A program made the position numbers and the translations under genes. Shown piece by piece: positions 13,495 to 17,009 of a stretch of DNA of 22,824 bases (within the stretch, counting starts at the first letter, position 1; each line of letters starts with the position of its first letter). This stretch comes from Halobacteriales archaeon QH_10_70_21 (GTDB lineage: Archaea > Halobacteriota > Halobacteria > Halobacteriales > Haloarculaceae). The notes under the pieces are model-generated. The model saw nothing but the letters and a program-made list of their open reading frames with translations, made no database searches and was not told the DNA's origin. The stretch covers positions 1 to 22,824 of the forward strand of contig PXQM01000011.1 in the NCBI GenBank assembly GCA_003021325.1, given 5' to 3'.

Positions 13495-13704
13495 ATGACG
13501 GATTATACGACCGTCTCGATTCCGAAGGACCTCGCCGACCGGGTCGAGGAGACCATCGAGGGGACGAGCTTCTCGTCGACGAGCGACCTGGTGCGGTTCC
13601 TGCTGCGGAGCATCGTCATCCAACACCAGAAACAGGGCGAGCTGACGGAGGCCGAGTTCGACGAGATAACCGACCAGCTCAGCGAGCTCGGCTACCTGGA
13701 GTAG
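13495..13704 (+). CDS. ribbon-helix-helix (CopG-type) transcriptional regulator
   Basis: 69 residues. A beta-strand TDYTTVSIPKDLADRVEETI opens a CopG/MetJ-type ribbon-helix-helix, followed by SSTSDLVRFLLRSIVIQHQ as the second helix. The acidic C-terminal helix TEAEFDEITDQLSELGYLE may dimerise or contact a partner. RHH proteins bind DNA as dimers with the N-terminal strand in the major groove. I chose ATG 13495 because the fold begins there; ATG 13468 (MSAASVLAG added) is possible and lies about 21 nt after a TATA-like box. The 3' end overlaps the next minus-strand gene by 13 bp. Confidence 0.82.
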   Translation: MTDYTTVSIPKDLADRVEETIEGTSFSSTSDLVRFLLRSIVIQHQKQGELTEAEFDEITDQLSELGYLE

Positions 13705-14105
13705 TCCTCGAGGCTCCCGTGCGGCGGGGCCACGTCGAGGACGTCGATCGGAACGCGGTCCCCGGAGCGGTCGAAGGCGCCGACGCAATCGTCGTCGTAG
13801 GGCGGCACGGCCACGAAGACGACCTCGTGGAGGTCGTCGCGCTTGGTGAGTGCCAGCGGTCCCTCCGGGTGGGTGACGAACCGGCCGGCGGCCTCCGGTG
13901 TCGAGAGGTCCATCCCGAACACCGCAGTCACCGACTCCCCCGCCTCCGGCAGGTACATGTCCGTGAACACGGACGTCTCCGGCGGTAGCTCGACGTCCAG
14001 TTCCCCGGCGTTCGTCACCGCGAGCGAGACGGTCACGGCGGAGGGGTCACGGTCGGCACCGAGGTCCAGAAGCGCCGTCAGCAGCCCGTGCGTGATGTAG
14101 ACCAC
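13692..14105 (-). CDS. conserved haloarchaeal hypothetical protein
   Basis: 137 residues starting at GTG 14105 (VVYITHGLL). Soluble, with a beta-rich middle: VTVSLAVTNAGEL, ETSVFTDMYLPEAG, VTAVFGMDLSTPEAAGRFVTHPEG and LHEVVFVAVPPYDDD. I recall homologues of the same length in other haloarchaea without assigned function. The 'FxTHPxG' and 'VVFVAVPP' blocks are the most conserved-looking parts. No catalytic motif is evident. Its 3' end overlaps that of the RHH gene. Confidence 0.72.
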   Translation of the reverse strand: MVYITHGLLTALLDLGADRDPSAVTVSLAVTNAGELDVELPPETSVFTDMYLPEAGESVTAVFGMDLSTPEAAGRFVTHPEGPLALTKRDDLHEVVFVAVPPYDDDCVGAFDRSGDRVPIDVLDVAPPHGSLEDYSR

Positions 14106-14173: not shown

Positions 14174-14239
14174 ACCAACCGCCGCGCCTCATGTTCGTAT
14201 GTTTCGGCTACCGGTATATCGAATAAATATCACAGAAAA

Positions 14240-14274
14240 CTTATTATCCAAAGCGGTGTCACATGTATACATGT
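14240..14274 (+). promoter_or_regulatory. TATA box and start-codon palindrome of the DUF7503-like mini-gene
   Basis: CTTATTA (14240-14246) lies about 24 nt before the ATG at 14271, so transcription should begin at or near the start codon. The perfect 14-bp palindrome ACATGTATACATGT (14261-14274) covers that position including the ATG. A protein bound there would block initiation. Confidence 0.6.
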
Positions 14275-14405
14275 CGAAAAGTAGCATCAAACAGGTTCTT
14301 GCCAACCACCCGAGGCTCCTCAGTGTCCTGTTTACGCTCCTTCTGTATCTCTCGCAGGTGGGGTCGGTCATCGCGGACGGTGGTGGCGGCCACGCCGGCC
14401 CCTGA
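14271..14405 (+). CDS. DUF7503-like 44-residue hydrophobic peptide
   Basis: 44 residues in three parts: a basic N-terminus (MSKSSIKQVLANHPRL), one hydrophobic helix (LLSVLFTLLLYLSQVGSVIA, about 17-36), and a glycine-rich tail DGGGGHAGP. The HPRL...LFT...LLSQ.G...GP pattern matches haloarchaeal DUF7503 mini-proteins as I remember them; their function is unknown. It could be a signal-anchored membrane peptide or be secreted, since the VIA-DGG junction resembles a signal-peptidase site. A TATA box 24 nt upstream and the palindrome over the ATG support this start. Its stop is 5 bp from the stop of the CHAT gene on the other strand. Confidence 0.75.
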   Translation: MSKSSIKQVLANHPRLLSVLFTLLLYLSQVGSVIADGGGGHAGP

Positions 14406-14410
14406 CGCGG

Positions 14411-16294
14411 TTACAGTTCCGAGAGGAGGTCCCGACTCCAGCCGAAGCGCCCGTCTACGACGACAGGGAACGACCCCGAGTCGAGGTACTCGCGGAGACG
14501 GTCGGTCGATACTTCGACTGGCGGGAGCGTCTTGGGGGCGAGGAAGACGGAGTCCTCGCCGATAGCTGGCCAGAACGCCGATCCCATCCCGGCGGAGCGG
14601 GCCGGGTGTGTAGTGATGCGCAGTCGGTACTCGTCGGGACCGACGGAATCGACCTCGGTGACCCAGGGTATGAGTCCTCTTGCCTGCGCGATGTCAGCGT
14701 TTCCGTCGCCCAAAACGAGGTACTGCGAGCCGACGATGCTCCGGTCTCTCGCGATAGAGAGCGCTCGCCGGAGCGGGAATCCCCTGTTGAGAAGCCGTGC
14801 CATCGTCTTCCCGATCCGAAGTGCACCCTCCTCGTAGACGTCGTCGAACGTCACGACGGCACCGACCGCGCCCCTCTCTGTGAGTCTGTACCCCTGGTCG
14901 TAGGACCGACAGGCGTTCAGGAATGCGATGTCGACCCCCACAGTATCCAGGGTCTCGGCGTCGAGCGTGCCGTCGGCACACTCGAACCCGTCGTCGTTGA
15001 CGTGTCCGACGTAGTGGACGTAGTCGAGGTCGGATTCGAGGACGAGCCGCAGGCTCTCGACGTCGAGGTCGTCGTGGAGTGTAACCTCGAACGGTAGGTT
15101 CAGGTTCGACCCGTAGGCCTCGCTGGCCGTGTCCCCCTCCTCGAGCATCCCCTCGTCGTTGCAGACGACGGCCACCTCGACGGCGTCGTCGTCCGCCGGT
15201 TCGCGCTCCTGCCAGTTCCAGTACGCCTCGGGTATCGTCTTGCTCGCGCCCACCGGCACGCCGGGGCCGACCCAGGCCTGGTCGATCGAGTCCGCTTCCG
15301 GCGGCCGGACGACGTCGCCGGCGTCCTCGAGCGCCTCCTGTTCGTCGTTCGAGCCGGCCGGCAGGTCGTCGTACACTCGAACCACCGCGAGGTCGTTCGC
15401 GAGAAACGGAAGGGCCTCGATACCCGGTTCGGAGGACTGCACGTGGGCCGTCAGCCCCCAGTTCGGGAACTCCCCCTCGACTTTCCCGTGGGGTACCTCC
15501 ATGTACCGTTCGAAGCGTTCCGCGGCGGGGCGTCCGTAGAGGGCCTCGAGGTCGACCTCGAGACCGTCCTCAAGCGTCTCCCGTTCGGACAGCGGGGTCT
15601 CGCGCTTGTCGACGGTCCTGACCAGACAGTCGAGGAAGAACGTTCGCTTGAGGGTCCGTTCGACGCCCCGCTCGAAGCCGCCACCGTCGTCGAGCGGATA
15701 CCGCCTGCCGTCAACGACAACAGCCGCCGGCTCGCCCGGTTCGACCCTCGCCCCGAGATAGTACGCCAGCGATGCCACCGGGAGGACGTACTCGAGATCG
15801 GCCGGGACCTCGACGTGGACCGGTCCGGTCGGGGCTTCGAGACCCGCCGGCACGGAGAACTCGTCGCCCACGGCGACCGCCGGCGGATGCCCCCGCAGCG
15901 TCGGGTCCATTTCCACGGTCAGGACGTTGAGCTTGTTCTCGACCGTACAGGGACCGCTCACCTCGACGTACAGCTTCAGCGGTCCCGACATCTCCACCGT
16001 GTAGGTGCCCGCCGGGAACGTCTCGCGGTCGAACAGGTCAACCGACATCGACGAGTCGGCCTCGTGGACGAACGCCGCGCCCGTGGGGCTGAACTCGAGG
16101 CGGTCGGTGCTGAACGCGACGGCCACGTCGATGGGGTACCGGAACCGGTCGTCGTCGGCAGGGGAGGGATCGACGTCTCCCCCCGTGCGCACCGTGTAGT
16201 TACGGCGGTCGATACGGTCGTCGATCCGCAATCCGCCATCGCAGAGGGTCTCGATGGCGACCCTGTCGTCGGTGTCGCCGTCGGCCGCGGCCAT
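14411..16294 (-). CDS. CHAT-domain (caspase-like) protease, haloarchaeal
   Basis: 627 residues in two parts. Residues about 30-170 are beta-rich (GTYTVEMSGPLKLYVEVSGPC), with no signal peptide; a mixed alpha/beta linker follows to about 365. Residues about 370-540 form the CHAT caspase-like domain: predicted catalytic His431 in VHYVGHVNDDG and Cys462 in IAFLNACRSYDQG, then GAVGAVVTFDDV, MARLLNRGFPLRRALSIAR and YLVLGDGNADIAQ, in the usual CHAT order. CHAT proteases cleave partner proteins, for example Csx29 in type III-E CRISPR and gasdermin activators. A 90-residue C-terminal extension follows. The start is ATG 16294; GATAAA (16319-16324), 24 nt upstream, lies inside a dyad. Convergent with the DUF7503-like peptide. 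No TPR or CRISPR genes are nearby. Confidence 0.85.
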   Translation of the reverse strand: MAAADGDTDDRVAIETLCDGGLRIDDRIDRRNYTVRTGGDVDPSPADDDRFRYPIDVAVAFSTDRLEFSPTGAAFVHEADSSMSVDLFDRETFPAGTYTVEMSGPLKLYVEVSGPCTVENKLNVLTVEMDPTLRGHPPAVAVGDEFSVPAGLEAPTGPVHVEVPADLEYVLPVASLAYYLGARVEPGEPAAVVVDGRRYPLDDGGGFERGVERTLKRTFFLDCLVRTVDKRETPLSERETLEDGLEVDLEALYGRPAAERFERYMEVPHGKVEGEFPNWGLTAHVQSSEPGIEALPFLANDLAVVRVYDDLPAGSNDEQEALEDAGDVVRPPEADSIDQAWVGPGVPVGASKTIPEAYWNWQEREPADDDAVEVAVVCNDEGMLEEGDTASEAYGSNLNLPFEVTLHDDLDVESLRLVLESDLDYVHYVGHVNDDGFECADGTLDAETLDTVGVDIAFLNACRSYDQGYRLTERGAVGAVVTFDDVYEEGALRIGKTMARLLNRGFPLRRALSIARDRSIVGSQYLVLGDGNADIAQARGLIPWVTEVDSVGPDEYRLRITTHPARSAGMGSAFWPAIGEDSVFLAPKTLPPVEVSTDRLREYLDSGSFPVVVDGRFGWSRDLLSEL

Positions 16295-16340: not shown

Positions 16341-17009
16341 TCACCCGAGGCCGACGAAGCCCTTGAGATTGTCGAGGTACAGCGGGACCATCTTCCGACG
16401 AGAGCTGCCGATAGCGTTGCTGATGGCGGGTCTGACGTTCTCGAAGAGCCCCTCGCCGTGGCCGACCAGGAGCCGGTCGGCGTCGTACTCCCGGAGCGAC
16501 CGCGGGGGCACCGCCCGCAGCATCGGGTGGACGCCGAGCCGCTCGCCGGGCGCGCGGAAGTACGACACCCTCCCGAGCGCCTCCGGGACGAGCAGCGTCT
16601 CGCCGTCGAACAGTGCCGCCTCCTGCCAGAAGGGGTTGTCGACGACCGTGTCGACGGCGAACTCGCCGACGCCGTCCTGGAACCGGACGACCGGGGCGTC
16701 GACGTCCTCCTCGACGCCGCTCATCCAGTCCGGGACGTAGACGGGCACGTCGTGACGGTTGGCGAGGGCCGCCGAGTCCCGCTTGTGCCGGTCCAGGAGT
16801 ATCACGACGCCGCCGACCTCGCCGTGCTCCGCCAGCAGGTCGTCGACCCCGTCGACGTCCACGGGGTCGATGACCCACAGTTCGCCGTCACTCTCGACGG
16901 CGTGGGAGGCTCGCTGCATCGTCTCCTCGGGGTAGGCCAGCCAGCCGACGCCGCCCTCGAAGCGGTCTATCTCGGTCAGCTCTGCCTCGCCGGCGCTTTT
17001 CATTCCCAT
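16341..17009 (-). CDS. metallo-beta-lactamase-like protein with degenerate metal motif
   Basis: 222 residues. The layout resembles an MBL fold: N-terminal strands ELWVIDPVDVDGVDDLL, then VVILLDRHKRDSAALANRHDVPVYVPDWM where HxHxDH would be, DGETLLVPEALG, and a C-terminal ADRLLVGHGEGLFENV. The zinc motif is reduced to DRHKRD, so hydrolase activity is doubtful. Haloarchaeal homologues of this length exist to my recollection, without known function. ATG 17009 has TTAAAT (17035-17040 on the plus strand) about 25 nt upstream; ATG 17003 is an alternative. Its stop is only 47 bp from the CHAT start, but CHAT has its own promoter. Confidence 0.75.
   Translation of the reverse strand: MGMKSAGEAELTEIDRFEGGVGWLAYPEETMQRASHAVESDGELWVIDPVDVDGVDDLLAEHGEVGGVVILLDRHKRDSAALANRHDVPVYVPDWMSGVEEDVDAPVVRFQDGVGEFAVDTVVDNPFWQEAALFDGETLLVPEALGRVSYFRAPGERLGVHPMLRAVPPRSLREYDADRLLVGHGEGLFENVRPAISNAIGSSRRKMVPLYLDNLKGFVGLG

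Follow-up and report, generated by a model that had tools for sequence, protein, structure and literature searches.

Introduction

CHAT cysteine proteases with a dedicated protein partner are known from the type III-E CRISPR systems, in which Csx30 is the protein partner of the TPR-CHAT protease Csx29 (Craspase). Here, we describe a locus from a 22,824-nucleotide stretch of contig PXQM01000011.1 of Halobacteriales archaeon QH_10_70_21 (the whole stretch is referred to as the window), in which a gene for a predicted CHAT/separase-fold (clan CD) cysteine protease faces a gene for a DUF7503 microprotein. The DUF7503 and CHAT genes form a real, dedicated pair across haloarchaea and, judged from sequence, what is conserved in the smaller gene is its C-terminus, a short peptide with a Gly-Pro (GP) end that is carried on exchangeable bodies.

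The pair shares with Csx29/Csx30 the CHAT cysteine protease and the dedicated partner, and the structures of Csx29 and Craspase are among the matches listed for our structure model, as are legumain-type enzymes; it differs in that the partner is a microprotein or an array of GP-ending peptides encoded by its own convergent gene. The best structural match was SAVED-CHAT, a CRISPR-linked filament protease, but this match is limited to model residues 424–594 and the N-terminal part of the haloarchaeal protein is little covered. No sequence relation to separase–securin was found, and the DUF7503 partners are mostly 37–49 residues long and GP-ending. In bacterial gasdermin systems the gene of a caspase-like or CHAT protease likewise adjoins that of a small membrane-active partner; here, however, helix-less partners occur and conservation lies in the tail instead of a pore domain. 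In 147 of the best 150 CHAT loci the convergent slot is occupied by DUF7503 or by a GP-ending open reading frame (ORF), several of them helix-less (a gasdermin profile was not searched elsewhere in the loci). The pair would resemble RRNPP systems (Rap–Phr, AimR–AimP) in having a precursor of about 40 residues with a hydrophobic N-terminal part and a functional C-terminal oligopeptide, encoded beside the gene of a cytosolic receptor. RRNPP receptors are of the all-helical HTH–TPR type, whereas the candidate receptor here is a predicted protease that combines a CHAT fold with a strand-rich N-terminal part; the genes are convergent and the domain of life is Archaea. Yeast α-factor and other multicopy peptide precursors also consist of identical tandem units with a short spacer between them; unlike these, the haloarchaeal arrays have no obvious signal sequence. 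The module has single features of CHAT–partner systems, RRNPP systems and multicopy precursors, and all features of none of them. Literature searches returned nothing on DUF7503, on 'CHAT domain' with 'haloarchaea' or on the pair, and this protease–peptide pair of most sampled haloarchaeal genomes appears to be undescribed.

Conservation of the gene pair

The genome sample consisted of 292 haloarchaeal genomes drawn evenly from the class, the only group sampled densely. Locus counts were taken from the best 150 matches of each search and therefore concern strong matches. DUF7503 was present in 250 genomes and a CHAT-family match in 271. Every one of the 250 genomes with DUF7503 had a CHAT-family match, and DUF7503 was absent from all 21 genomes that had no such match (Fisher p ≈ 1e-20, uncorrected for kinship). 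A convergent CHAT gene was found at 149 of the best 150 DUF7503 matches (65 listed CHAT genes, 79 of 80 fetched loci, four others and G132, an ambiguous case). In the reverse direction, the convergent slot of the best 150 CHAT matches held DUF7503 in 134 cases, a tandem peptide array in six and another GP-ending ORF in seven, with none found in three. 65 of these CHAT genes face a listed DUF7503; the 84 others were all fetched and gave 69 DUF7503 (including L216, for which the assignment is borderline), six arrays, seven other GP-ending ORFs and two for which no partner was found. The three CHAT loci in which no partner was found are G051, where DUF7503 lies in tandem 1.4 kb from CHAT, G162 and G132, where this applies to one of the two CHAT genes. 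At G162, also the single exception among the DUF7503 matches, both genes are orphans: DUF7503 has no CHAT for about 9 kb in either direction, and the CHAT gene lies on the same contig at a distance of 32 kb, as if a pair had been split. Across 191 pairs the genes overlap by exactly 4 bases in 35, are spaced at −3 to 0 bases in 27 and are 1–10 bases apart in 50.

Six neighbouring genes of the window were found to recur in just 1–8 of 80 DUF-centred and 4–10 of 80 CHAT-centred loci. Chance adjacency and general synteny were ruled out by the 149/150 convergence among the best matches together with this neighbour recurrence of 1–10 in 80. The original prediction, made from the DNA letters and their open reading frames, had proposed a dedicated pair; neither a lack of association nor an equal frequency of DUF7503 beside unrelated genes was found, and the proposal stands on the convergence and co-occurrence counts above.

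Among 246 genomes of the phylum, four outside the class sample gave weak CHAT matches (215–227 bits); their convergent slots held no DUF7503, and one long GP-ending ORF there was taken as chance. Searches against phages returned no record matching the CHAT protein and no match to DUF7503. Multiple CHAT genes were also seen in two cases: locus L277 (genome G025) has three tandem CHAT genes, and neither DUF7503 nor a convergent ORF with a GP end was found for them; genome G126 (loci L287, L295, L300, L303 and L305–L307) has 11 CHAT-family matches, several of which face GP-ending ORFs with differing hydrophobic bodies.

The window locus

The features of the locus in the window are as follows.

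14411..16294, minus strand: gene for the CHAT/separase-fold cysteine protease (predicted activity), 627 residues
15002..15004, minus strand: codon of the catalytic His431 in the HYVGH motif; position calculated from the start of the ORF
14909..14911, minus strand: codon of the catalytic Cys462 in the LNAC motif; position likewise calculated
15905..15907, minus strand: junction in the CHAT ORF at about codon 130, where 49 residues are missing; from the alignment and block conservation in 114 rows
14271..14405, plus strand: DUF7503 microprotein gene, 44 residues
14316..14375, plus strand: hydrophobic segment of DUF7503 ending in VIA, a signal-peptidase-like −3/−1 pattern
14376..14402, plus strand: 9-residue C-terminal tail of DUF7503, DGGGGHAGP, the element common to the whole system
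14406..14410, no strand: 5 bases separating the two stop codons in a tail-to-tail arrangement
14234..14247, plus strand: AT-rich element agaaaacttattat, resembling a transcription factor B recognition element (BRE) and TATA box, about 35 bases 5' of the ATG of the peptide

This confirms the convergent 627-residue CHAT-fold and 44-residue DUF7503 genes of the original prediction, with stop codons 5 bp apart. The window peptide scored 61.8 bits against DUF7503 (PF24335), above the cut-off of 27. The window CHAT allele has 49 + 8 fewer residues, in frame, than the otherwise near-identical protein P0002, the 8-residue gap lying at about codon 325. The missing 49-residue block (GARSxHERP...SY, before PTLRGHPP) ranks with the best-conserved stretches of the family, as judged from 114 rows.

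The small partner and its tail

Alignment of 158 distinct DUF7503 peptides gave a common core (approximately xxYLAxHPRMIGVLFTLLLLLSQAGxxAA), a single hydrophobic helix with a conserved glutamine and an HPR/K flank, followed by a variable tail; 140 of the 158 end in GP. Over all partner types, GP ends were found in 170 of 191 partners (from 195 CHAT loci; the set mixes DUF-first and CHAT-first loci and so does not give an unbiased rate) compared with 344 of 25,209 background ORFs (1.4%), which justifies the attention that had been drawn to the GP tail. In 13 of the 191 pairs the GP codons overlap the CHAT coding part; among the 178 partners in which they do not, 158 end in GP.

Selection was estimated from 47 close pairs, which have tails of the same length and a CHAT similarity of at least 70% across the C-terminal 330 residues. 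The ratio of nonsynonymous to synonymous rates (dN/dS) was 0.19 for CHAT, 0.14 for the core and 0.18 for the tail, and no diversifying selection on the tail was found in these pairs. The two terminal residues, which are GP in 43 of these pairs, showed no nonsynonymous change at 191 sites at a proportion of synonymous differences (pS) of 0.51, and therefore the Gly-Pro end is kept as protein and not as DNA; a DNA or terminator motif was ruled out in this way, as the synonymous sites change freely. A spurious small ORF was likewise ruled out, by dN/dS values below 0.2 and the TATA-like element. A first estimate from 59 pairs chosen by core similarity (tail dN/dS 0.26; 2.2 nonsynonymous changes at 240 sites in the last two residues) overstated the tail variability and was replaced. 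In the 47 pairs pS was 0.27 for the core, 0.41 for CHAT and 0.56 for the tail, and the core may be under an additional constraint at the RNA or codon level.

Tail-ending classes follow the CHAT clades, with only seven changes over the 170 rows of the CHAT tree. The tree was calculated with FastTree and has long branches; the window row was partly used, and the clade claims rest on the other rows.

Array and helix-less partners

60 CHAT genes lacking a listed DUF7503 were fetched, of which 12 had no DUF7503 by profile. All 12 have a GP-ending ORF in the convergent slot. Six of these ORFs, from six genomes, are tandem arrays of the unit ADGN[GS][GS]GISGP, with 5, 4, 7, 10, 6 and 13 full copies. 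The units are 11 residues long and end in ISGP, the unit peptide is identical within each array and there is no obvious hydrophobic helix. In the L173 array 13 units with 13 distinct DNA sequences encode one peptide, ADGNSGGISGP (pS 0.58; the nonsynonymous counterpart, pN, 0.000), and the residue following GP varies between Y, F and S. The units are therefore selected as peptides, and their natural or mature end looks like GP.

The CHAT proteins facing arrays form one clade (support 100), joined at 99 with an ordinary DUF7503 clade (own support 91). When 177 tails were compared with the array unit, the five best matches came from this sister clade (GNHVGISGP, GNNVGISGP and GNHGAISGP), whose tails have a mean score of 4.06 out of 7 compared with 1.58 for the others (kinship uncorrected). 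In view of this likeness, the 9-residue DUF7503 tail and the array unit are most plausibly one element.

Of the remaining six ORFs, those at L172, L182, L188 and L196 end in ACTYSGP or SCTYSGP, have no obvious helix and overlap the end of CHAT with their GP codons; the other two are diverged DUF7503-like forms. A search of plasmids for arrays gave one low-complexity mycoplasma match, which was disregarded.

The CHAT enzyme

The window protein does not reach the cut-off of the Pfam CHAT profile PF12770 (11.3 bits versus 24), and none of 15 family members matched PF12770 at E 0.01 or had a Pfam match of any kind. CHAT/separase membership is therefore described here by fold and dyad rather than by this profile. 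The structure model of P0002 has a caspase-like fold, and the catalytic His and Cys were found in 165 of 165 alignment rows filled to more than 70%. The listed structural matches lie mainly in residues 189–596 of the P0002 model. Residues ~12–187 consist mostly of strands, carry an invariant HPP motif and are spanned by few of these matches. A hydrophobic stretch above 1.6 occurs in 23 of 119 CHAT proteins; since it starts within the first 50 residues in only two of the 119, the enzyme, in which no signal sequence is obvious, is probably cytosolic.

Promoter and predicted topology of the partner

The 178 partner genes show an AT peak of 0.87 at 31–35 bases 5' of the ATG, with which the agaaaacttattat element of the window coincides. 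The pattern AAANTTAT was found in 44 of the 178, at −40 to −36 in 35 of the 44, and precedes arrays and DUF7503 alike. Such a distance is expected for the TATA element of a leaderless or nearly leaderless transcript.

The −3/−1 rule of signal peptidase (an AxA-like site) fits the residues before the tail in 163 of 166 DUF7503 proteins, a count that leaves out 11 of 177 unfit for the cutting pattern, which itself demands a nearby Ala; the tail is 7–9 residues long in 161 of the 166 that fit the pattern, and the arrays lack this arrangement. DUF7503 has 1.84 Lys and Arg residues per protein before the helix and 0.10 in the tail. The basic N-terminal flank, near-uncharged tail and AxA site therefore predict either an N-in/C-out topology or the release of a 7–9-residue peptide; the DUF7503 tail would thus lie outside the membrane or be freed by signal peptidase.

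Interpretation

We propose, with confidence evenly balanced between acceptance and doubt, a two-gene haloarchaeal module in which the microprotein is the carrier or precursor of a peptide and CHAT is the enzyme that recognizes this peptide by its Gly-Pro end. The essential part of the smaller gene would be the short GP-ending peptide (7–9 residues after the AxA site in most DUF7503 proteins, or the 11-residue array unit), and the body would be replaceable: most often one hydrophobic helix (DUF7503), in some partners no helix at all and, for one clade, 4–13 helix-free tandem copies of the peptide. In the array form CHAT may cut the copies apart, after GP; in the DUF7503 form signal peptidase may release the tail. 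The data show the conserved pairing and orientation, the invariant dyad, purifying selection on the tail and on the array units, the likeness of unit and sister-clade tail and the helix-less forms; binding or cutting, the bond cut, the topology, the way in which CHAT would be affected and the output in the cell are inferred. The likelier variant would be an exported or surface-displayed peptide that is met later by CHAT, because the DUF7503 tail is predicted to be outside the membrane or released. An exported signal fits DUF7503, and an intracellular inhibitor fits the helix-less forms. As a less likely extension, an exported, lineage-specific GP-ending peptide of 7–13 residues, made as a single tail or from a multicopy precursor, might be sensed intracellularly by its cognate CHAT and lead to a proteolytic decision (differentiation, dormancy or death).

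Several observations weigh against the carrier–enzyme proposal or its exported variant, beginning with the restricted basis of the AxA count. Neither a signal nor a helix is present in the arrays and in several further partners; export therefore does not apply to all forms, and the peptide may encounter the enzyme only within the cell. Of the 191 partners, 21 do not end in GP (TID in five, NGGx in nine and others, with TGI among the endings, in seven). No CHAT position was found to track the tail class in all independent changes, the best doing so in four of seven. The pairing is looser in distant CHAT paralogs: at 16 such loci, the convergent slot holds a GP-ending ORF in five cases, a DUF7503-like ORF with another ending in one and neither in ten; the GP-ending ORFs facing distant paralogs have unrelated bodies and end in RVSTYGGP, SSSPYTGP, TTTTPGP and TNPGP. 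Only 12 of 32 further CHAT ORF entries (including fragments and a few repeated loci) face a candidate, of which at least one is probably chance and one has no GP end. The window CHAT allele itself may be an assembly error, a strain variant or an inactive copy.

The GP tail might instead act inside the cell as an inhibitor or antitoxin-like plug, sitting product-like in the CHAT active site with the body as anchor or sensor, so that loss of the microprotein would free the protease to stop or kill the cell. An invariant C-terminus on changing bodies and the existence of helix-less forms are in keeping with this, and multiple copies could mean multivalent inhibition. CHAT relatives were also found on 25 haloarchaeal plasmid records, and 33 of 33 genomes for which at least two pairs were available have a different tail in each pair (from the tails-per-genome table of a neighbour clustering that was dominated by antisense ORFs and otherwise unused). 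However, the positive-inside pattern of DUF7503 places the tail outside, away from the signal-less enzyme, and a CHAT-family match in 271 of 292 genomes is more than is usual for toxin–antitoxin pairs. We regard a plug as unlikely.

That the microprotein is a substrate from which the protease produces a membrane effector (pore formation or dormancy), as with CHAT-cut gasdermins and Csx30, had been among the functional readings suggested by the original prediction. The single helix of the DUF7503 core, with its conserved glutamine and HPR/K flank, and the Csx29 and Craspase structural neighbours of the enzyme agree with it. It is not supported as a general function, as arrays and some helix-less ORFs fill the convergent slot and retain the GP end, and the part kept in nearly all partners is this end and not the helix. 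Thus, of that interpretation the dedicated pair and the GP tail were retained and the membrane effector was not; weakened to the least general reading, it is improbable.

We would give similarly little credence to a multivalent scaffold, in which GP tails clustered by helix oligomers or tandem repeats gather CHAT proteins for activation by proximity, as in other caspase-fold enzymes. Helix and tandem repetition do look interchangeable as means of presenting several tails and the best structural match forms filaments, but the DUF7503 tail is predicted to be outside and the arrays, at 4–13 full units, show no clear optimum.

Very improbable is a CHAT that serves as maturation enzyme or ligase for a peptide that is secreted as a natural product or in the manner of a bacteriocin and acts on other cells: identical cores with a variable spacer recall multicopy precursors and fold-sharing legumain-type enzymes are among the structural matches, but the six tested window neighbours do not recur beside the pair (no systematic search for transporter or modifying genes was made).

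If the signalling extension of the carrier–enzyme proposal is true, the module would be the first gene-encoded peptide communication system of archaea. In the arrays evolution marks the exact peptide that matters, which can be synthesized and tested directly. Strong caspase-like activity has been described in Haloferax volcanii in a 2012 paper, the accessible part of which names no gene for it (PMC3615174). A control search showed that H. volcanii carries DUF7503; given the pairing, a matching CHAT protein is expected there and should be present, and the gene question becomes testable through it. For archaea, the accessible text of another study describes a chemically unidentified quorum signal of ≤3 kDa that survives autoclaving and proteinase K, its authors arguing against a large peptide (PMC12240190). 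A link between this signal and the GP peptides would be speculation.

Neighbouring genes and defence-model search

Three CHAT proteins and the peptide were searched with the PADLOC 2023 models, and no match was obtained at E 0.1. The pair in the window is flanked by two uncharacterized genes on the minus strand, at 13695–14105 (137 residues) and 16344–17009 (222 residues), the products of which have no Pfam or NCBIfam match. The two genes recur in three of 80 DUF-centred and ten of 80 CHAT-centred loci.
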